A stretch of 44,874 nt of DNA. It comes from a virus. The position numbers and the translations under genes are program-made. Of the stretch, positions 24,175 through 37,515 are shown one piece after another. The notes beneath the pieces are model-generated. The model was not told the DNA's origin, did no database searches, and saw only the letters and a list, made by a program, of their open reading frames with translations. The stretch covers positions 1-44,874 of IMG/VR virus record IMGVR_UViG_3300031841_005919; one strand, 5' to 3'. Each line of letters begins with the position of its first letter. Positions within the stretch are counted from its first letter, which is position 1.

Positions 24175-25434
24175 CTATGTATTCTTTCTAAATACGCTAA
24201 CTGGTCTTTTGCCTTCAATCGCCGCATCTAGATTGTCGATATTGTTTTTAACAACCTCAAATGCCTTTTTGGAAGCAGAGACAGTTTTTTCTATGTCTTC
24301 TTCAGTATGAGAAAACTGTATATAAATAACATTAGGAAATAATATCCCTTGTTTAACCATCTCCTGATAAAATAAGGTCTTCATACCCTCTGGATCATCA
24401 TAATTTTCAGAAAATGTAAGATTGTGACGTGGTGCGGAGCCTGCAAAATTTATTTTAAGACCTGCATCAACGGCAGCTTGTTTGATTCCGACATCAAGAA
24501 GGTTTCCAAGCTTCCAAATATATTCATAGTCTTTTTCTTTCAACTCTTGAATAGTTGCTATGCCTGCTGCCAGAGATAAACACTCTCCTCCAAACGTCAT
24601 AGAGAAAAAAGCATGATCTAATTCAGACATGTACTCTTTTTTTCCCGCTATGGCACTAAGTGGCATGCCATTGGCAATCGACTTACCCAAACAACACAGA
24701 TCAGGAGTTACCCCAAAACGCTCTTGGGCGCCGCCTAATGACCATCTAAAGCCAGTTACGACCTCATCGAATATCAACAAAGCGCCATACTTGTCAGCAA
24801 GTTCTCTAACGCCTTCTAGGAAGCCAGGAGCAGGGGCAGTTAGGGCTTGTGCTTCCATTATTATTCCTGCTACCTTATGCTTCTTGAGTATCTCTTCTAA
24901 GCTATCTAGATTATTATATTCAAAACTATGAACATAATCTTTTAACACGGAGGGAATACCATATGGCCTGAGTGTAATACCATGCCAATCACCCCAACCG
25001 TGATAACCGCATTTTGCAATGTGCTCCCGCTTAGTGTATGATCTTGCGATCCGAACTGCTGCCAAATCTACATCCGTTCCATTCTTCGCAAATCTGACTT
25101 GTTCTGCGCATGGTACCACTTCACAAATAAGCTCAGCCATCTGTTGTTCTAAAAGTGTTGGAAGAGAAAAAATAATACCTTTTTCTAATTGCTGTTTTAC
25201 GGCTTCATTTGTATTGTCGTGGTTGTAGCCTAGAATTATCGGGCCAAGACCACACATAAAATCTAAATATTCCTTACCATCAAGACCAGTCAAATAAGCA
25301 CCTTTAGCTTCAGTGGCAAATTTAGGATAAACGCCATCAACAAATTGATCTGGGCATTTACTCATTGTTTGAGTGCCTCGAGGCATTAAACTAATCGCTT
25401 TTTCCCATAAGTCTTCTTCTTTTTTTGTACTCAT
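24175..25434 (-). CDS. Class III aminotransferase, glutamate-1-semialdehyde aminomutase-like (419 aa)
   Basis: The PLP fold is clear: KYGALLIFDEVVTGFRW (residues 217-233) contains the cofactor-contacting Asp. PDLCCLGKSIANGMPLSAIAG (about 244-264) contains the Schiff-base Lys. FMCGLGPIILGYNHD near the N terminus and FFSMTFGGECLSLAAG near 274-289 are further class III motifs. Overall it resembles HemL, but in O-antigen and nonulosonate clusters such enzymes act on keto-sugar nucleotides. It may replace the DegT-type PseC/LegC aminotransferase, which is absent here. A tetrapyrrole role is unlikely given the neighbours. It lies 20 bases behind the second NeuB-like gene. Confidence 0.8.
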   Translation of the reverse strand: MSTKKEEDLWEKAISLMPRGTQTMSKCPDQFVDGVYPKFATEAKGAYLTGLDGKEYLDFMCGLGPIILGYNHDNTNEAVKQQLEKGIIFSLPTLLEQQMAELICEVVPCAEQVRFAKNGTDVDLAAVRIARSYTKREHIAKCGYHGWGDWHGITLRPYGIPSVLKDYVHSFEYNNLDSLEEILKKHKVAGIIMEAQALTAPAPGFLEGVRELADKYGALLIFDEVVTGFRWSLGGAQERFGVTPDLCCLGKSIANGMPLSAIAGKKEYMSELDHAFFSMTFGGECLSLAAGIATIQELKEKDYEYIWKLGNLLDVGIKQAAVDAGLKINFAGSAPRHNLTFSENYDDPEGMKTLFYQEMVKQGILFPNVIYIQFSHTEEDIEKTVSASKKAFEVVKNNIDNLDAAIEGKRPVSVFRKNT

Positions 25435-25454
25435 AATATGCTCTCTATTTATAT

Positions 25455-26456
25455 TTATAGGATACCGCCATCTGTTATGAAATCATCCTCTTGATAATCA
25501 CGATCAGCGGATTTACCTATTATATCATAAAATCTCGAAGAATGTATATTTCCTTGCAAAAAAGGTCTTTTTGTTGTAAGATTTTTTTCTGTTAGCTTAT
25601 CGCCCTTCTTTATAGGCCCAGATGCCACAACAGATCTCATAGCCTTAATAAACTTGTTTTCACTTTCTGTCAATAAATGTTGTGTATCCGAACACATGCT
25701 TTCTGAGATCCTTATATTTTTAATCATTTGATTTAATTCATCTGGCTCTAAAGCAAAGGGGTGATCTGGGCCCGGAAGGTGCCGAGATAAGGTATAGTGT
25801 TTTTCTATACATGTTGCTCCCTTAGCCACCGCTAAAACTGGTGCCAGGATTCCTTGCGTGTGATCAGATAAACCAACTTTAATCACTTCAGAATAAAGGG
25901 ATTTTAATGCATCTATTCTATTGAGATTTATATCATTATCTGGAGTTGGGTAAGCATTATTGCAGTGAAGTATTGTAATATCTGGATCTTTTTGCTCTTC
26001 TGAAATCCATTTTATAACATTTTTGACTGATAATATGTTGCTGCCAATTCCTGCTGAAGCTATGATTGGCAAACCAGAAGATGCTACCATTCTTACAAAC
26101 CTAGGGTCAGTAGATTCAAACCCGGCAATTTTGAGTCGCCTAACACCCAGACTCACTAGTTCCTCTACAGCCTTCTCGTCAAAAGGTGTCGACATAAACT
26201 CAATGCCCACATCATCACAATAAAGCTTTAAGTCTTTTTGCCATTCTCTAGGCAATTGGATACTTTCTATAAGTTTTGTTATATTCTTATAGCCCGCAAA
26301 ATCAGGGGTATTTTTAGAATACAATGTACTTGAAGAATATGTCTGGAATTTTACTGCATCTGCTCCTGACTCTTTTGCTACATCTATCAAAGAAAAGGCT
26401 TGTTTGATATCTTGATTATGGTTAGCGCCGGCTTCAGCTATGACAAAAACACTCAT
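25455..26456 (-). CDS. NeuB-type nonulosonic acid synthase, full length, copy 2
   Basis: This 333-residue enzyme has both domains. The barrel motifs are FVIAEAGANHNQD (residues 4-16), DAVKFQTYSSS, LKIAGFEST, ILHCNNAYPTP, VGLSDHT and EKHYTLSRHLPGPDHPFALEP. The last is close to the metal site of legionaminic/pseudaminic acid synthases. The C-terminal SAF domain runs from about residue 275 (RSVVASGPIKKGDKLTEKNL), so it is complete, unlike copy 1. It overlaps the dehydratase gene upstream by ATGA. Substrate identity cannot be read from sequence alone. Confidence 0.87.
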   Translation of the reverse strand: MSVFVIAEAGANHNQDIKQAFSLIDVAKESGADAVKFQTYSSSTLYSKNTPDFAGYKNITKLIESIQLPREWQKDLKLYCDDVGIEFMSTPFDEKAVEELVSLGVRRLKIAGFESTDPRFVRMVASSGLPIIASAGIGSNILSVKNVIKWISEEQKDPDITILHCNNAYPTPDNDINLNRIDALKSLYSEVIKVGLSDHTQGILAPVLAVAKGATCIEKHYTLSRHLPGPDHPFALEPDELNQMIKNIRISESMCSDTQHLLTESENKFIKAMRSVVASGPIKKGDKLTEKNLTTKRPFLQGNIHSSRFYDIIGKSADRDYQEDDFITDGGIL

Positions 26457-27433
26457 TTGTTGTCCGTATTTGATTCCTTGGATCCACGAAGAATTAACTT
26501 TAAAAGAACTTCTACATCATCACTGACATGCAATGAAGAATTAAAGTGAGGGCCATCATATCTAGGCCACTTAGTATTGTGACTTCTTTTTGAATATTGC
26601 GGCCTCACACATAGAAGATTGGCATTGTCAACCTTGTATGTAAATGGAAGTTCCGTTTCAGCCAACATGTCTTCATGCATTTTTTCTCCTGGGCGGAGTC
26701 CAATAATATTATATTCAAACGGTTTTCCGTGAATGTTTTCTACTGCTTTGAGAACAGTCCTCATATCATAAGACTTAATCTCTGGGATAAAAACCTCGCC
26801 ACCCTCACAATTGTCGACAGCGCCAAGCACAGTATCGACAGCATCTTCCAAAGTGAACAAGAATCTGGTCATATCCAAAGATGTGACCTTAATATCTTTT
26901 TCCTCTTGTAACAAACCTAGCCACAAAGGTATAAAAGAACCCCTAGATGCAATAACATTACCATACCTAACCGATGCAAAGATTGTTGTTTCAGAGTCGT
27001 AATCATGGTTAGTAAACAGCCTCTCTGCGATAAATTTAGATGATCCATATACATTAACAGGCTGGCAAGCTTTATCTGTCGATATAAGCACGCACTTCTT
27101 AACATCTGACAACAAAGCTGCTCGTGCAACATTGTCTGAGCCATGTATGTTTGTCTTTATACATTCATCTGGGTGGTATTCCATGTCATCAATTCTTTTG
27201 AGAGCTGCTGTGTGTATAACGATATCAGGCTTCTCTTTTTTCATTGAAGTGTAGAGCTTGTCATAATCTCTAATATCACCTATGATACATTTAACGTCCT
27301 TCTTCTGACCGTATACTAATGCCTGCTTGCCTTCATCTCTAGAATACACCACAACTTGGTGACCCTCTGACATTAATCGTTTCACAAGAGCTTTTCCTAA
27401 AGATCCAGTACCACCCGTAATAAAGTATTTCAT
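26453..27433 (-). CDS. UDP-GlcNAc 4,6-dehydratase-like SDR (PseB/CapD type)
   Basis: The start chosen is ATG at 27433, overlapping the upstream stop as ATGA; an earlier in-frame start at 27457 would add eight residues of no obvious use. The NADP-binding motif is FITGGTGSLGKALVKRL at the N terminus. VVYSRDEGKQ, IIGDIRDYD and IHTAALKRIDDMEYHP follow, and the catalytic Y-x-x-x-K lies in VYGSSKFIAERLF. GLRPGEKMHEDMLA near the C terminus is diagnostic for the PseB/CapD-like group. These enzymes make the 4-keto-6-deoxy sugar that begins the bacillosamine, legionaminic and pseudaminic pathways. It is thus the probable entry step of this cluster. Confidence 0.85.
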   Translation of the reverse strand: MKYFITGGTGSLGKALVKRLMSEGHQVVVYSRDEGKQALVYGQKKDVKCIIGDIRDYDKLYTSMKKEKPDIVIHTAALKRIDDMEYHPDECIKTNIHGSDNVARAALLSDVKKCVLISTDKACQPVNVYGSSKFIAERLFTNHDYDSETTIFASVRYGNVIASRGSFIPLWLGLLQEEKDIKVTSLDMTRFLFTLEDAVDTVLGAVDNCEGGEVFIPEIKSYDMRTVLKAVENIHGKPFEYNIIGLRPGEKMHEDMLAETELPFTYKVDNANLLCVRPQYSKRSHNTKWPRYDGPHFNSSLHVSDDVEVLLKLILRGSKESNTDNK

Positions 27434-29463
27434 TTTATATGTAACCTCTCTATACACTCCGGGGCTGGGTTTATATCTGATATGATTTTCAAAGTAGTTC
27501 CCTTAGATTTAAGCCACTCATACCATGGTAGCATAGCATCTGTTGTGATTTTCTCTTCATGCTCGAGTGTTTTAACTGCATCTTCATTCATAGCTACTTC
27601 ATTGCTATGAATAAAATCTTTTTTATCAAATCCTGAATCTTGCTTGTCATAAAAATGCTGTTGATCTGCATTTCCCTTGATCAACTTATTGTCCCAGCCG
27701 ATAGTTATCACTTCGGAAAAACCCAAATGTTCTAGCGCAAAAAACACCACTTCATATTCAATACCGGGGCCGTATGGTCTTAATAGCGGCTGCTTATCAA
27801 AAGTCCATTCTTCAAAATTGTGGGCTGCAGCCGTTGACTTGTTGAAGTCCCGTTCTCTAATGAAAAATTTCAAATCACACTCTCCCATTTTATACGGAGC
27901 TGTTGAAGCTTCCATCACAATAGGTCTGTGATTTGAATAATCGTACTGCTTATGATTTGCGCAGTTATAAAGGTGTAAATCTATATTTTCTCCAAACAAA
28001 TCAAAGGCTTGCTTTATAGAGATACCAAAGTTTTTGCTTAACAAATCTTTTATCTTTTCTGGATCGTGATCTGTCAATGTTGGACCACAAGAGACCAAAT
28101 ACGCGGTATCTCCTCTGAAGAGATCCTTTAAGAAATCTATTTTATCTCTCTGAGACATTTCCGAGTCCGAGATTGTACTTCTTGCAAACTTTGCTCTTTC
28201 TTTAACATCTGAAATTTCCAGTGCTTGGTTTCTCAATGATTCTATGTCATTTGAATTATTGGACACAAAGTTTCCAAAAATAGAAGTATTATACTTCTCT
28301 AAGATATCATCTAGCTTATGATTCTTGTTTGCCTGCTCTTGCAAGATAGAGGCCCACTTCTTATACATTCCATAATTTGAATAGATTTTTCTCATTTGTG
28401 ACTTATAGCTAGACTCTGATGGATATGCCCACTTACTATCTTCCGTTATGATATCTTTCCAAACCGCTTTTTTGTCGACCTGCTTAACATCATAATCGAT
28501 TCTTGCAAAAAGCTTCTTTGTCTTTCCCTTTAGTGGACCAGATAAAAAGTCTAAATGTCCTGACCAATCGGTAACAGCGACTGGCATGCCAGAATATACA
28601 GCTTCAAAGACGGGTAACCCATAGCCCTCTCCATGCGTAGTTGAAACATAAGCCTTTATCTTTGGATGCTTGTAGAGCGAGTGTATTTCGCTTTCCGAGA
28701 GATCTCCGTGTAACAAATATATTTTACACTTTTTTTCTCCTAAGTTGGAAATAAACTTACTTACCTGATTTAAGGTTTTTCTTCGATCTTCGATACTAGA
28801 CCTGCCTAAGCTCGTCTTTAGGATCAACCCAACATTCTCATCATTTCTGAACTCTTCGATAAAACCCCTGATTGTCATGTCCAGGTTCTTTCTTGGGCCG
28901 GTCATAGCGATACTCAAGAAATTAAAATCAGTATCAAAGTCTATCTCCAAATCTGGGCCTTCAGTCTTTTTAACTGGGTAATGTATTACATCTACAGGGC
29001 ACGCACAATTGATTTGCGTTTTTGTGCCTTCTTTTTTGTTTATGATTTCATAAATGGTTTTGACAAACCCGCTCTTTGCATGCTCCGAAGGAACTATAAA
29101 CTTATCTATACCTTGATGTGTTTTTATCAACCAGGATGGAGCAACTCTGTCTGTCTCAATGCCGGCCGTTACGCAAATAGAATACGGAGCCTTTTTTTGA
29201 AATTCATTAGGGATACCTACATGTATCTGCATTGAAAATTCTGGTTGCTTTTGCTGTTGGTTACAAGCTGTGGCATATCTGCCGAGGGCTCTAATATCTT
29301 CTACCACCTCTTCATCTGGCTGCTCCCACGTAGTCTGGCCCCAAGCCAGTGGATCAACCAATACCTCGATATCATCTCTCTTTTTTAAGGCCCTGTATAC
29401 CAATCTTGCATGTTCGCCGTATCCTGATTTTGTGAGGATTGGCCCTTCTAATAATACTTTCAT
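27430..29463 (-). CDS. Two-domain protein: GT4-type glycosyltransferase fused to DUF115-like domain (677 aa)
   Basis: Residues 1 to about 390 form a GT-B glycosyltransferase: VLLEGPILTKSGYGEHARLV at the start, then FNFLSIAMTGPRKNLDMTIR near 185-205, and AYVSTTHGEGYGLPVFEAVY near 270-290 with the sugar-nucleotide-binding Glu. From about residue 450 a second domain begins with TAYLVSCGPTLTDHD and later has VITIGWDNKL, the same strand-G-P-T/S and strand-G-x-D pattern as the stand-alone proteins at 18219 and 20693. The fusion could couple two sugar transfers. It is joined to the GT4 gene upstream by TAATG and to the dehydratase downstream by ATGA. Confidence 0.75.
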   Translation of the reverse strand: MKVLLEGPILTKSGYGEHARLVYRALKKRDDIEVLVDPLAWGQTTWEQPDEEVVEDIRALGRYATACNQQQKQPEFSMQIHVGIPNEFQKKAPYSICVTAGIETDRVAPSWLIKTHQGIDKFIVPSEHAKSGFVKTIYEIINKKEGTKTQINCACPVDVIHYPVKKTEGPDLEIDFDTDFNFLSIAMTGPRKNLDMTIRGFIEEFRNDENVGLILKTSLGRSSIEDRRKTLNQVSKFISNLGEKKCKIYLLHGDLSESEIHSLYKHPKIKAYVSTTHGEGYGLPVFEAVYSGMPVAVTDWSGHLDFLSGPLKGKTKKLFARIDYDVKQVDKKAVWKDIITEDSKWAYPSESSYKSQMRKIYSNYGMYKKWASILQEQANKNHKLDDILEKYNTSIFGNFVSNNSNDIESLRNQALEISDVKERAKFARSTISDSEMSQRDKIDFLKDLFRGDTAYLVSCGPTLTDHDPEKIKDLLSKNFGISIKQAFDLFGENIDLHLYNCANHKQYDYSNHRPIVMEASTAPYKMGECDLKFFIRERDFNKSTAAAHNFEEWTFDKQPLLRPYGPGIEYEVVFFALEHLGFSEVITIGWDNKLIKGNADQQHFYDKQDSGFDKKDFIHSNEVAMNEDAVKTLEHEEKITTDAMLPWYEWLKSKGTTLKIISDINPAPECIERLHIK

Positions 29464-30716
29464 TATAGTTCAAACATCTCCCAACTCTTATAATTCTTTC
29501 TATTTTTCCAAGATCCCATGTTCTCAAAAACATCATTGAAAACTTGATACCACAGGCCTGTATATTTGGCCATTCCGTAATTATCAATAACATGTTGGCG
29601 GCCAGCTTTACCCATCGCTTCTCGGTCTTCTTTTGACATGTTATAGAACTTCTCTATTGCGCTTAAGAAATCCTCTTTAGATACCCTATCTTCATAAATA
29701 TACGGAACATCTTGCGAGCCAATAACTGCTTTTGATGCGGGCTCTAGACCAAAGCCAAACCAATTTTCACCATCTGTTACTTGTTCCTGCATTCCGCCCG
29801 TCATTGTCACTATGATTGGAGTTTCGCAGGAAAGTGACTCCAATGTACCTAAACCAAAACCTTCGGCGTCTGCTATGTTTATAGTACAATCAGCTAAGTT
29901 ATAAAGACAAGAAAGTTCTGCAGGTGGCAGTTTAGTAGTCGATATCATCACTTGGCCCTGATCCAGGCCCAGCTCGTCGATGATAGCTTCCAGGTCTTGG
30001 CCGTTTGGATCCTTAGGCTCGGTATGCATTATCAGCATTGCTTTGTCGTGACCAACTTTGTCTAAGAATTCTTTAAACCAAAAAATAAGAGTTCCAGACT
30101 GCTTTCTTCTTGCATTTCTATTGTTCCAAAAGAAAACCATCTTGTTTTCTGCTTCGGCTTGTCTACGAAATTTTTCAACTGTTTCTTCAGATCTCCTATT
30201 TTTAAAAATTGAAGTATCAACTGTATGCGGTACCCACACACATTTAACATCCGGAGACACTGTTCGAACAATATCGTCGGTAACCTTACTGATGGTGCAA
30301 ATAACATCAGTTGAATCATAATAATTCTTATTAAATTTTGGATATGGATAGTTATCCCAAACATGATAATATATCATTGGAACGTTAGGCCTGATTTCAT
30401 CTTCCATTTGCCAAAGCCAAGTGTAGAACCTAGGATCGGTCATGAACCAAAGCGCGTCCGGCTTATAAAGTTGAAGCATTTGTCGAATGATATTAGGATT
30501 TCCATATCCATCAACAGGGTGAATGATCCAGTCCTCCCCATACGGGTCGACCTTAACAGGACTATAATCGTAATGTTTTAAAGCTCCAGCCAGACAGACA
30601 AAGGAAAACTCCCCTGTTCTCAACATTCCTTCAATCATATATTTTGTTTGTGTTCCCACACCAGAAGGGGCCAACGGGCTATCTGCTATAACTAATATTC
30701 TCTTTTTTTTACTCAT
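29463..30716 (-). CDS. GT4-family glycosyltransferase (417 aa)
   Basis: The protein is a GT-B enzyme: RILVIADSPLAPSGVGTQTK at residues 6-25, FFWNNRNARRKQSGTLIFWF near 196-215, and CTINIADAEGFGLGTLESLS near 280-299, the retaining GT4 donor-binding E-x7-E region. It probably adds a hexose or related sugar to the phage-directed glycan, from the cytoplasm. ATG at 30716 (ATGA overlap with the nuclease stop) is preferred over an ATG two codons earlier. The related N-terminal domain of the next gene suggests the two arose by duplication. Confidence 0.82.
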   Translation of the reverse strand: MSKKKRILVIADSPLAPSGVGTQTKYMIEGMLRTGEFSFVCLAGALKHYDYSPVKVDPYGEDWIIHPVDGYGNPNIIRQMLQLYKPDALWFMTDPRFYTWLWQMEDEIRPNVPMIYYHVWDNYPYPKFNKNYYDSTDVICTISKVTDDIVRTVSPDVKCVWVPHTVDTSIFKNRRSEETVEKFRRQAEAENKMVFFWNNRNARRKQSGTLIFWFKEFLDKVGHDKAMLIMHTEPKDPNGQDLEAIIDELGLDQGQVMISTTKLPPAELSCLYNLADCTINIADAEGFGLGTLESLSCETPIIVTMTGGMQEQVTDGENWFGFGLEPASKAVIGSQDVPYIYEDRVSKEDFLSAIEKFYNMSKEDREAMGKAGRQHVIDNYGMAKYTGLWYQVFNDVFENMGSWKNRKNYKSWEMFEL

Positions 30717-31507
30717 GTGCATTTCTCTGTATTGTAAAATTTACAGTACCTGCAAGAAAGACGGTTCTTTATTGCAAATCCTTTCTCAATATTTATAACA
30801 GTTTTTTCCAAAGAACTTAAGCAATTATTTAGCTTCTTGCTTCCAGATGTGACTCTAAATATTTCTACATTTTCTTTTTTTGCAGTTCTCTTGAGAAGAG
30901 CAAAATAAGTTTCGATCTGAGATAAGTCGACATTATGCTTTTTTGCGAAAAAATGTTTATACATAGTTAGCTGGTAACTAACCAACTTATCTGCTTTCTT
31001 TTCTGCGCGCCAGCCCCAGCTACAAGTCTTCCAATCAATGATATGGTATTTCTCATCTGGTGTCTTGATAACGAGGTCGATGAAGCCTTTGAACTTCTTT
31101 CCATAAGACTCAAAGTCAGTTATTGGTTCCATTAGAGATTCTTCTATAGAGACTACTTCAAAATCTCCAAAGTGCTCTCTTACTGCTGGTAAAACCTGAT
31201 CACAAATAGGCTTTGCCTGCTCTCTCATTTCTAGTACTAACTTTTTGTTGAAATCATGATTGTTTTCTTTTAGTTTTTTTAATTCACTTAAAAAAGACTT
31301 TTCGAAAATCTCATAAGCATTGACCTCTTCGTTGGGTATCTTTTCTTCGCAAGCAGCGTGGATTGCTGTTCCGAAAGCAGTGTATTCGTTATCAGAATAA
31401 TAAGGCTCTTTATCTACATAAATAAGTTTATGTCTATAAGGGCATTCATTCCAAGTCTTATACTCAGAATAGCTTATTCTTTTTTCTTCTATTTGTACTA
31501 GGGACAA
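30713..31507 (-). CDS. PD-(D/E)XK nuclease, Cas4/RecB-like, with probable 4Fe-4S cluster (264 aa)
   Basis: Catalytic motifs are present: the His in FGTAIHAACE (near residue 50), KFKGFIDLVIKTP (Asp near 142), YHIIDWKTCSWGW (D-x-K near 155-158) and the QLTMYKHFF helix. Four cysteines fit the Cas4/AddB iron-sulphur arrangement: one in NECPYRHKL near residue 22, then CRYCKFYNTEKC at the C terminus. Such nucleases process DNA ends in phage replication and recombination. The start is TTG, the only usable codon after an in-frame stop, with a weak AGAAAGAA site. It overlaps the GT4 gene by four bases, an odd partner for a nuclease. There are no CRISPR repeats or other cas genes. Confidence 0.8.
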   Translation of the reverse strand: MSLVQIEEKRISYSEYKTWNECPYRHKLIYVDKEPYYSDNEYTAFGTAIHAACEEKIPNEEVNAYEIFEKSFLSELKKLKENNHDFNKKLVLEMREQAKPICDQVLPAVREHFGDFEVVSIEESLMEPITDFESYGKKFKGFIDLVIKTPDEKYHIIDWKTCSWGWRAEKKADKLVSYQLTMYKHFFAKKHNVDLSQIETYFALLKRTAKKENVEIFRVTSGSKKLNNCLSSLEKTVINIEKGFAIKNRLSCRYCKFYNTEKCT

Positions 31508-35526: not shown

Positions 35527-36159
35527 TCAGATAAGCTCGTCAACTAAGCCATACTCTAAGCATTTTTCTGCTTCCCACCACAGATCATGCTTTAAGATGT
35601 TGTCTAATTCCCTCTTGGGAATCTTTGTGTGCTGTTTATAAATATCTTTTATCTTCTTCATAAGCATTTCTGAATTTTGCATATCATCTTGCATGTCCTG
35701 AAACTTCCCCCACAACAGGCCAGAAAGCTGGTGAACTAACATACATGCATTTCTGTGCATATATCTTCTCTCAGCTACGACAGACATTAAAGTTGCTGCA
35801 CTTGCTGCGCAGCCATCTATAATCGAATGAACAGGGACCTTTGAAGACTTGATATAATCAACAGCCGACAACCCTGCGAATACAGAACCGCCATAACTGT
35901 TTATGTGTAGTTTAATGGGCGGAGGCTCATATTCTAGCGGTACAGTCTTACCCAAAAAGGCGACGTTTAAGTTGTGAATACCTCTATTCACTTTTAAGAT
36001 TTTAGGACGAGTAACTGCAGAATAAAAATAAATTCTATTATGACTAAACTCTACGACATTATTGTCGGTTGTTGCATGAGCTTTTGTTTCGCTCGCCATC
36101 TCGTGAGGTGTTCTTAGCTCTTCCTGTTCATCTTCTGAACCCCAATAGTGGTCTAACAT
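35527..36159 (-). CDS. clpP: ClpP-like serine protease (210 aa)
   Basis: The ClpP/crotonase fold shows LHINSYGGSVFAGLSAVDY near residues 73-91, the nucleophile Ser in HSIIDGCAASAATLMSVVAE (about 108), the His in NACMLVHQLSGLLWG (about 133), and an Asp in LKHDLWWEAEKCLEYGL (about 190). The final GLVDELI is typical. It is of usual ClpP length with a roughly 25-residue acidic N-terminal extension. Phage ClpP homologues may act in head maturation or host proteolysis. No ClpX/ClpA partner lies in the window. The start ATG has AAGGAAAGGAAAA upstream. Confidence 0.87.
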   Translation of the reverse strand: MLDHYWGSEDEQEELRTPHEMASETKAHATTDNNVVEFSHNRIYFYSAVTRPKILKVNRGIHNLNVAFLGKTVPLEYEPPPIKLHINSYGGSVFAGLSAVDYIKSSKVPVHSIIDGCAASAATLMSVVAERRYMHRNACMLVHQLSGLLWGKFQDMQDDMQNSEMLMKKIKDIYKQHTKIPKRELDNILKHDLWWEAEKCLEYGLVDELI

Positions 36160-36189: not shown

Positions 36190-36753
36190 TCAAAATCCTT
36201 TAATGATATTTTGTATTTCTTTTTTGCTTCTCTTTTTTTCCTGGGGAATATGAGTGTATATTATCTCAATATACAACGACCTTTCGCCATCAGCAAATAG
36301 ACTAGATTCGATATGGTACCCACCATGTGTCCAATACGTATTAATATCGTGAAGCCCCAAAGATATAGGATAACAGGGAGCAGCGGTTAAAAGGTCCTCA
36401 ATGATTGGGTCTCTCCATTCTTTGACCAGACTGTAAGGTCCATATTTGCTATTAAGAAACCTTCGCACTTCTTTGTATTTATCGATACAGTTTTGCTCGT
36501 TTAAGCCGCGTGGGCCCAATATAAGGTAAGCCTTTGATATCTTATTCTTGTGGAAAACCAGTTGTATCTCTGCCTCGAGGCCCAAGACACTTTCTTCCTT
36601 AAGATAAACAACTTTGCCCCAATCAACACCACCATAAAAGTAACTATATCCAGATATTTGAGGATATTCTTTGTGAATCTTATCCCAGGAGATATTTAAT
36701 GGGTTTAGCGAAGTGAAAGATAAAATTAGGTACGATAATATACTTTGAAACAT
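36190..36753 (-). CDS. Putative secreted protein (187 aa)
   Basis: Residues 1-20 (MFQSILSYLILSFTSLNPLN) look like a signal peptide without a strong basic start. The mature part is beta-rich, with LGLEAEIQLVFHKNKISKAY and LYIEIIYTHIPQEKK at the end, and two Cys. The layout resembles small periplasmic or lipoprotein domains of bacteria that use a YxFxxGKL-like strand, but no family was identified. It starts 16 bases behind the tRNA and is probably on the same transcript. No Shine-Dalgarno sequence is clear. Confidence 0.5.
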   Translation of the reverse strand: MFQSILSYLILSFTSLNPLNISWDKIHKEYPQISGYSYFYGGVDWGKVVYLKEESVLGLEAEIQLVFHKNKISKAYLILGPRGLNEQNCIDKYKEVRRFLNSKYGPYSLVKEWRDPIIEDLLTAAPCYPISLGLHDINTYWTHGGYHIESSLFADGERSLYIEIIYTHIPQEKKRSKKEIQNIIKGF

Positions 36754-36768
36754 AATAAAATTTTACAG

Positions 36769-36842
36769 TGGGCCCACCTGGACTCGAACCAGGAACCGAC
36801 GGTTTATGAGACCGGCGCTCTAACCTATTGAGCTATAGGCCC
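36769..36842 (-). tRNA. tRNA with CAU anticodon, probable tRNA-Ile2 (AUA-reading after lysidine modification)
   Basis: The minus strand folds as a full cloverleaf: acceptor GGGCCTA/TGGGCCC, D arm GCTC-GAGC, anticodon stem CCGGT/ACCGT (one C-U mismatch), loop CTCATAA, T arm CCTGG-TTCGAGT-CCAGG, discriminator A, no encoded CCA. The anticodon CAT is at 36808-36806. Initiator features are absent: positions 29-31 are GGT, not GGG, and pair 1-72 is G-C. C4-G69 and C5-G68 match the acceptor pairs reported for TilS recognition of E. coli tRNA-Ile2, whereas E. coli elongator tRNA-Met has T4 and A5. With a TilS gene 24 bases upstream, tRNA-Ile2 is the likeliest identity. Confidence 0.93.
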
Positions 36843-36850
36843 CCACTTAT

Positions 36851-36869
36851 TAAGTATATAATATACTTA
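36851..36869. repeat. AT-rich inverted repeat between tilS and the tRNA
   Basis: TAAGTATAT and ATATACTTA are 9-base arms around a single A. The stop codon of tilS lies in one arm. In RNA it could form a hairpin of about eight pairs just before the tRNA 5' end, perhaps helping processing. It has no following U-run, so it is not a clear terminator. Confidence 0.45.
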
Positions 36870-37472
36870 TTTTACATAAAGTTCAAGAAGTTTTTTTCGA
36901 ATAGTCTTTCTAATCCCTGGATTTACTTTTAGGACATGTGGGATAATGTTTTTTCTCACATGGTTTCTCATAAAATTTGTGTGCTGATTTGACGGATCTT
37001 CAATCCACTCTACTCCCTTCCTCTTTGCATAGCCAATAATAGATTTTTTGTCTGTCAACAAGAATGGACGATATATGTTACTTGACCTTTGATATGGTAT
37101 TAACCTTCCTTGGCCATGAAAGCTTGTCATAAGCCACGTTTCTACACAGTCATCCAAATGGTGACATGTTAACAGAAAATCAGCATCCAAGCTATCAAAA
37201 AAAGAATATCTCTCATCTCTCCAAAACTCCTCAAGAGACCTCTTACCTCGAGACCCCTTCACTTTACCTATATCAAGTTTAAGGTTGCTTTTTTGCGCAA
37301 AAGACTTTACAAAGTCTTCAGCTTTTCTGGAGTGTGCAGTATCGTGGTTGAAATATGCTAAAGAGATATCTCTCTTTCCTTGCATAAGAAAATGAACAAA
37401 CGCCATTGAATCCACGCCGCCAGAACAAGCAACTGTAACTTTTTCAGGTATTTTGCCTAAGATACGAATCAT
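36867..37472 (-). CDS. tilS: tRNA(Ile)-lysidine synthase, minimal catalytic form (201 aa)
   Basis: The PP-loop ATPase motif TVACSGGVDSMAFVHF is at residues 13-28. LTCHHLDDCVETWLM near 100-114 and NFMRNHVRKNIIPHVLK near 166-182 are the TilS-specific signatures. The enzyme uses ATP and lysine to convert C34 of CAU-anticodon tRNA-Ile to lysidine, changing both its codon (AUG to AUA) and its charging. The protein ends after the N-terminal catalytic domain; bacterial TilS is usually 310-460 residues with C-terminal tRNA-binding domains. It lies directly upstream of the CAU tRNA. The ATG is preceded by ATATTTATTGT with no Shine-Dalgarno sequence. Confidence 0.88.
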   Translation of the reverse strand: MIRILGKIPEKVTVACSGGVDSMAFVHFLMQGKRDISLAYFNHDTAHSRKAEDFVKSFAQKSNLKLDIGKVKGSRGKRSLEEFWRDERYSFFDSLDADFLLTCHHLDDCVETWLMTSFHGQGRLIPYQRSSNIYRPFLLTDKKSIIGYAKRKGVEWIEDPSNQHTNFMRNHVRKNIIPHVLKVNPGIRKTIRKKLLELYVK

Positions 37473-37473
37473 A

Positions 37474-37492
37474 CAATAAATATATTTTATTG
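37474..37492. repeat. Short inverted repeat before tilS
   Basis: CAATAAA and TTTATTG, seven bases each, flank TATAT. The repeat overlaps the TATTTA element and ends one base before the tilS ATG. It may be part of the promoter or a weak RNA hairpin. Confidence 0.35.
37477..37482 (-). promoter_or_regulatory. TATTTA element 4 nt before tilS
   Basis: The minus strand reads AAATATATTTATTGT then ATG. There is no Shine-Dalgarno sequence. It may drive tilS, the tRNA and the downstream secreted-protein gene as one unit. Confidence 0.4.
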
Positions 37493-37515
37493 TCGATTAT
37501 TTGTCAAGTGTATTT

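Follow-up and report, generated by a model that had tools for sequence, protein, structure and literature searches.

A tilS–tRNA-Ile2 gene pair in marine phages and its predicted role in AUA decoding

Phage tRNAs are usually treated as bare genes, and their correct modification is seldom asked about. This question is raised by a locus in which a tRNA gene with the anticodon CAU lies beside a gene for tRNA(Ile)-lysidine synthetase (TilS), the enzyme that converts C34 to lysidine and so switches a tRNA from Met/AUG to Ile/AUA. Does the phage carry a modifying enzyme for its own tRNA, and what would it gain from it? In many phages, and in either of two gene orders, the enzyme is encoded together with the one type of substrate known for it, so that a single tRNA, enzyme and codon would suffice for a direct test of the codon-supply hypothesis. 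The locus belongs to a 44,874-base IMG/VR fragment from a marine virus infecting bacteria, which was analysed over its whole length and is called the window below (Table 1). With a probability of about 85% we regard the two genes as an AUA-decoding cassette, consisting of a phage tRNA-Ile2 (CAU) and a single-domain TilS predicted to lysidinylate it.

Table 1. The tilS–tRNA locus and its neighbours in the window
Feature	Position	Strand	Remarks
Sigma70-like tilS promoter TTGACA-17-TATATT	37479..37507	-	11/12 matches
tilS	36867..37472	-	201-aa catalytic-domain-only tRNA(Ile)-lysidine synthetase; TIGR02432, fold and motifs
Putative tRNA promoter TTGAAC-17-TATTAT	36858..36886	-	Overlaps tilS end; 9/12, weak here but stronger among relatives
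tilS-tRNA spacer, 24 nt	36843..36866	-	13-25 nt in window-clade relatives
tRNA-Ile2 gene, anticodon CAU	36769..36842	-	No encoded CCA, C27.U43 mismatch; ARAGORN, Rfam, profile
187-aa ORF, no family match	36190..36753	-	Begins 15 nt past the tRNA
ClpP-like head maturation protease	35527..36159	-	PF00574, phrog_94; conserved downstream neighbour

Identity of the enzyme and of the adjoining tRNA

The window protein scores 130.6 bits against the curated equivalog-domain model TIGR02432 (lysidine_TilS_N, cut-off 93.6) and 125.7 bits against Pfam PF01171. By sequence, the closest solved structures are the TilS enzymes of A. aeolicus (1wy5) and G. kaustophilus (3a2k). An AlphaFold2 model (pLDDT 95.5, pTM 0.90) has as its top PDB folds the A. 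aeolicus TilS entries 2e21, 1wy5 and 2e89, with TM(query) 0.83–0.84 (2e21: 0.84, E 2.9e-15). The motifs SGGVDS, HHLDDxxET and DPSN...RNxxR are present and kept among the homologues, and S17, G18, G19, D21, S22, H104, H105, D108, E111, D159, N162, R169 and R173 are invariant in 39 aligned sequences. With bacterial TilS, be they type I (E. coli; G. kaustophilus, 3A2K) or type II (A. aeolicus, 1WY5/2E21/2E89), the protein has in common the PP-loop ATP-binding catalytic domain, the signature motifs and the predicted fold, and also the presumed substrate class, tRNA-Ile2 with CAU.

The difference lies in the C-terminal part. We know of no TilS lacking both CTD1 and CTD2 for which activity has been demonstrated. 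The window enzyme stops at the end of the catalytic domain and has neither, and we have filed it for this reason as a catalytic-domain homologue belonging to neither of the two types, of which type I possesses CTD1 and CTD2 and type II lacks only CTD2 (PMC12514573). In characterised type I enzymes CTD2 touches the acceptor stem and contains residues essential for lysidinylation (PMC12514573). That the C-terminal tRNA-binding domains are missing had been noticed in the initial annotation, and the same is true of every phage homologue found: these measure 189–233 aa, compared with 283–479 aa in 25 sampled bacterial relatives, if the 207-aa sequence L101 is counted among the phage enzymes in which it is nested. 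In a maximum-likelihood tree the phage and bacterial sequences are split with 100/100 support by a stem of 1.14 changes per site. As judged from the sequences, phage TilS is a monophyletic family made up of the catalytic domain only. Full-length TilS in several 'phage' records (Acinetobacter, Salmonella, Listeria and others) was excluded as being probably of bacterial origin; in the Acinetobacter record the full-length tilS has polA, proC and accA as neighbours. L101 itself (PBIO01000016.1, 48.8 kb) comes from a Halobacteriovorax MAG and holds a minimal phage-type tilS, which is followed after ~550 nt by a CAU tRNA. It was rejected as a bacterial minimal TilS: since it nests inside the phage clade despite its bin, we read it as probably a phage contig within that bin, which is a possible hint to a host.

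The tRNA is the sole tRNA or tmRNA detected in the window by ARAGORN and Rfam. It is placed at 36768–36842(-) by ARAGORN, with anticodon CAT, and at 36769–36842(-) by Rfam RF00005 (69.1 bits, cut-off 29); as the initial annotation had stated, exactly 24 nt separate it from tilS. The minimum free energy fold of the transcript has a non-cloverleaf optimum, and the covariance-model match was judged the better evidence. With profiles whose CAU class labels rest on likeness to E. coli and Bacillus types, the tRNA scores 100.4 as Ile2, 57.6 as elongator Met and 28.7 as initiator fMet, confirming its assignment to Ile2 instead of Met. The references were taken from E. coli and from a sample of genomes covering Bacteroidota, Aquificota, Bacillota, Bdellovibrionota and Gammaproteobacteria, and 22 of 22 were classified correctly in leave-one-out. 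Among those of E. coli, Ile2 was confirmed in E. coli genomes and was used together with presumed Met and fMet sequences. The nearest bacterial tRNA is the Ile2 of Salinibius, with 81% identity and an identical acceptor stem. Initiator features are indeed absent, as had been claimed, for 1:72 is a G-C pair and the tRNA is hence not an initiator. The discriminator is A73; CCA is encoded in several relatives though not here.

Both acceptor pairs reported earlier, C4-G69 and C5-G68, are present. In the window clade 4:69 is C-G in 15/15 tRNAs and 5:68 in 14/15 (one U-G); 3:70, 6:67 and 7:66 vary, with pairing preserved in nearly all. Outside this clade 4:69 is often not C-G (A-U, U-A or G-C in L043, L047–L050, L058, G039 and MIJ3). 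To call the two pairs determinants here, as had been done, was an overstatement. They were mapped with E. coli TilS (PMC12514573), the CTD2 that contacts the acceptor stem is missing from the phage enzyme, and other phage pairs have lost 4:69; given an enzyme without CTD1 and CTD2, their role for this TilS is an assumption. The mismatch C27.U43 leaves a 4-bp anticodon stem. A pyrimidine mismatch at this position (C.U or U.C) is found in 10 of the 17 listed phage Ile2-type tRNAs, to which one C.A can be added, and in one of eight bacterial Ile2 references; the clade members L004, L005 and L007 have 27:43 paired. In L040 the anticodon loop reads CTCATAA.

CAU tRNAs with a long, class-II-like variable arm were seen 17 to ~1030 nt upstream of five tilS genes (L047:7838-8428, L049:6071-6658, L053:6290-6877, L054:10001-10591 and L064:8192-8791). 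Their acceptor stem is GGAACGG, or GCAACGG in L054, and in sister loci with an identical acceptor stem and T arm the variable loop is short. Other TilS phages contain tRNA-like matches of 123 nt (L229:1501-1623, record G036; G037:188468-188590; G039:74281-74403), which exceed the model length by ~49 bases and are possibly intron-containing tRNAs.

Conservation and predicted transcription of the pair

A scan of viral contigs with the window TilS protein yielded 17 relatives, and in each of the 15 with 61–73% identity a CAU tRNA was found just downstream of tilS. A TilS profile scan matched at least 527 TilS-like stretches, and the best 80 of these were retrieved. In the window clade, which consists of T4-like marine phages, every recovered locus has the CAU tRNA 13–25 nt downstream of tilS. 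In related lineages the distance is 11 nt (L056), 262 nt (L055) or ~550 nt (L101 and L198), and in a second TilS clade the order is reversed, the tRNA being located 16–22 nt upstream (L046, L048, L050–L052, L054, L058). Whole-record searches detected an Ile2-type CAU tRNA in 13/13 TilS phage records exceeding 120 kb, MIJ3 and two huge-phage genomes among them, and in the record of L006 (G018, 175 kb) it is the only tRNA gene, accompanied by a tmRNA. An exception is L043, where the CAU tRNA 1.2 kb downstream of tilS classifies as Met. A motif search found no CAU tRNA in 18 of 20 shorter TilS records, which may be fragments, and many TilS phage sequences, again probably fragments, showed none across up to 96 kb; a first motif search for overlooked CAU tRNAs in 39 loci gave zero. 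Because all 15 close relatives and further ones carry the pair, the association is, on this comparison, not due to chance, and the idea of enzyme and substrate tRNA as a module stands insofar as the two form a conserved unit across relatives.

The surroundings are conserved as well, in the order tilS, tRNA, ClpP-like head protease, trypsin-like gene (opposite strand) and PhoH. Thirteen loci were compared: in 11 of them 0.7–1.3 kb separate the tilS start from a ClpP-like homologue, and among the 13 the 187-aa ORF is inserted only in the window, L003 and L009. One-piece tmRNAs were observed in relatives (L004:3943-4250, L006:6384-6693, L009:224-534, L015:6124-6429), with tags such as ANDDVETFEDFALAA. 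For the DNA around the cassette no matching phage record was found; the closest cultured major capsid proteins are those of Flavobacterium phage immuto (47%), a Microcystis phage (47%) and Rhodothermus phage RM378 (41%). Elsewhere in the window (24175-30722) genes for a NeuB/PseI-like synthase, a PseB-like dehydratase, a GSA-aminomutase-like aminotransferase and glycosyltransferases form a sugar-modification cluster, which suggests a phage-made glycan.

The -10 hexamer of the tilS promoter ends exactly 6 nt before the ATG, and there is no Shine-Dalgarno sequence upstream of this ATG. From this position the predicted +1 is the A of the ATG and the mRNA would be leaderless. Among the 39 window ORFs of at least 100 aa, no other has a promoter of such quality within 40 nt of its start. 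Eight of the 17 clade members share this offset with at least 10 matches, and weaker promoters at the same offset are seen in L061, L071 and L074. Ahead of the tRNA gene, clade members show a -10 element, mostly at a distance of 8–12 nt, and a -35 element TTGAAA or TTGAAC inside the tilS end; the -10 mean score is 5.58 compared with 4.70 in shuffles, 0 of 1000 of which reach 5.58. The element of the window, 15 nt from the tRNA, is within chance when the window is taken alone. No terminator was found after the window tRNA. These positions suggest that the cassette could be transcribed independently by a sigma70-type polymerase inside the virion-gene region, and that it may be expressed early.

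Use and meaning of AUA

AUA is the commonest isoleucine codon of the window (482 of 972, 49.6%; 33.7 per 1000 codons), in agreement with the earlier expectation that it is frequent in phage genes; it is also correct that it forms codon 3 of the gene for a 3903-aa protein and codon 8 of tilS. An emphasis on late genes was not substantiated, as AUA is common throughout the window and the cassette promoters look sigma70-type. Homologues have Ile at 41% of the AUA positions, Val at 23%, Leu at 17% and Met at 2%, a pattern like that of AUU/AUC and unlike that of AUG, so AUA means isoleucine. A reassignment to Leu, Ser or Met was considered for the sister clade with class-II-like CAU tRNAs and rejected, since AUA still aligns with Val/Ile there.

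With the third bases of fourfold boxes as expectation, the observed/expected ratio of AUA is 1.22 in the window and has a median of 1.15 in the window clade (n=19), compared with 0.73 in five T4-like controls without TilS (T4, HTVC008M, P-HM2, S-SSM7 and immuto), 0.615 (median) in TilS phages whose searched DNA contains no CAU tRNA (n=20) and 0.64 in the tRNA-upstream clade, with individual ratios down to 0.35; the samples are small (5–20 kb) and come from related phages, so that p-values overstate their independence. By these ratios, AUA is avoided in these other T4-like phages, and the avoidance is lifted in the clade whose pair is invariably linked as one unit. Cause and effect may run either way between AUA use and the cassette. 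The sister clade, in which the pair persists although AUA is rare, speaks against AUA abundance as the full explanation, and the codon rationale is not general.

Proposed mechanism, alternatives and known systems

In the mechanism we propose, host-type promoters would start each transcript at or near its first functional base, giving a leaderless tilS mRNA and a tRNA with a short leader. Host enzymes would mature the 5' end of the tRNA, add CCA and charge it with isoleucine. The single-domain TilS, acting specifically on this tRNA, would turn C34 into lysidine and thereby change the codon from AUG to AUA and the amino acid from Met to Ile. The payoff for the phage would be a supply for AUA, which its clade uses at or above the base-composition expectation while other T4-like phages avoid it. 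The label 'self-contained' given in the initial annotation was too strong for such a system, as the host must provide lysine and ATP and also carry out CCA addition and tRNA maturation; among the window genes no IleRS was recognised. Tentatively, and at not quite even odds, the phage enzymes may further constitute a virus-only third type of TilS, in which the catalytic domain alone reads the tRNA without an acceptor-stem domain and evolves jointly with a private substrate encoded next to it. The tRNA body would thereby be free to change while AUA is kept as isoleucine, and the lost 4:69 determinant, the 27.43 mismatches and the long variable arms of the sister clade could be read in this way. 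The Met/Ile boundary of the genetic code depends on how TilS discriminates between tRNA-Ile2 and tRNA-Met, and a TilS of one domain provides a minimal system for this question.

In those TilS phage fragments that lack a CAU tRNA, the enzyme may serve a host tRNA. That this is the main role of phage TilS, sustaining or boosting lysidine on host tRNA-Ile2 or the whole CAU pool during infection with the adjacent tRNA as a secondary supplement, appears rather unlikely to us. Such a role would suit the many tRNA-less stretches and the low AUA use of the second clade, and maintenance of host viability was proposed by the authors of MIJ3 (PMC6892783), but within the window clade the two genes always stay together, all 13 of the large records have an Ile2-type tRNA, the tRNA-less records are probably fragments, and G018 retains the CAU tRNA as its only one. 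As an improbable reading, the pair could be a counter-defence that makes up for tRNA-Ile2 lost to a host anticodon nuclease or toxin; the variant tRNA, with its 27.43 mismatch and altered arms, would escape cleavage and still be modified by the phage TilS. We know of no nuclease specific for tRNA-Ile2. The AUA excess of the window clade points to codon supply instead, and no tRNA-repair gene was recognised when the window genes were scanned against families; the strongly remodelled D and variable arms of second-clade tRNAs, the recurrence of 27.43 mismatches and the retention of the pair where AUA is rare would nevertheless agree with it, and phage tRNAs that evade tRNA-targeting defences are documented (PMC10264068).

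Two further possibilities concern the chemistry. The weakened 27.43 stem might allow the tRNA to read AUA by extended wobble without lysidine while being charged with Met, so that AUA would partly mean Met. Changes at 27-43 enhance wobble and 4-bp stems, as in the window tRNA, were proposed to let C34 read NNA codons (PMC13092985), but the near absence of Met at AUA positions, the dedicated TilS adjoining the tRNA and the paired 27:43 of three clade members make this very improbable. Hardly credible at all is a TilS homologue that diverged to another substrate or chemistry, as a TtcA- or TtuA-like PP-loop paralogue, beside an ordinary phage tRNA-Met: both C-terminal domains are absent and weak cross-matches to TtcA and TtuA exist, but these amount to 34.3 (272 needed) and 22.3 (450 needed), the TilS model is matched above its curated cut-off, TilS comes first among the fold matches, and the tRNA is classed as Ile2.

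Phage TilS genes and a lysidine-bearing phage tRNA-Ile2 are already known, each separately. The Pseudomonas jumbo phages MIJ3/PA5oct have a 203-aa minimal TilS of the same phage clade, 44% identical to that of the window, and ~9 kb away, in a tRNA cluster, an Ile2-type CAU tRNA annotated as tRNA-Met; in the accessible part of that paper the authors draw no link between the two (PMC6892783). A tRNA(Ile)-lysidine synthetase is annotated and mentioned in passing for the T4-like marine pelagimyophages of group PMP-A (PMC7029224) and, listed with 349 aa, for Ralstonia jumbo phage RsoM2USA (PMC8504454), and no pairing with tRNA-Ile2 was found described in the accessible parts of either. The tRNA(CAU) of a T4-like vibriophage bears k2C34 and, as proposed here, is a phage-encoded, lysidinylated tRNA-Ile2 that decodes AUA; it differs in that the accessible text mentions no phage TilS, the modification presumably being made by the host enzyme (PMC13191261). 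Giant viruses share a viral tRNA(Ile)-lysidine synthase gene but have eukaryotic hosts, and a tilS–tRNA cassette is not described in the parts accessible of PMC8570155 and PMC5871332. In the open-licence PMC literature we found no description of a linked tilS–tRNA-Ile2 cassette, nor of single-domain phage TilS as a family in its own right or of the promoters, and the novelty is accordingly provisional.

TiaS, the tRNA(Ile2) C34 agmatinyltransferase, is an archaeal enzyme. Flavobacterium phage immuto carries a gene annotated as such (NC_055915.1:112261-112575; L269:12262-12576), which encodes only 104 aa; if this annotation is right, it would represent a different phage solution to AUA decoding.
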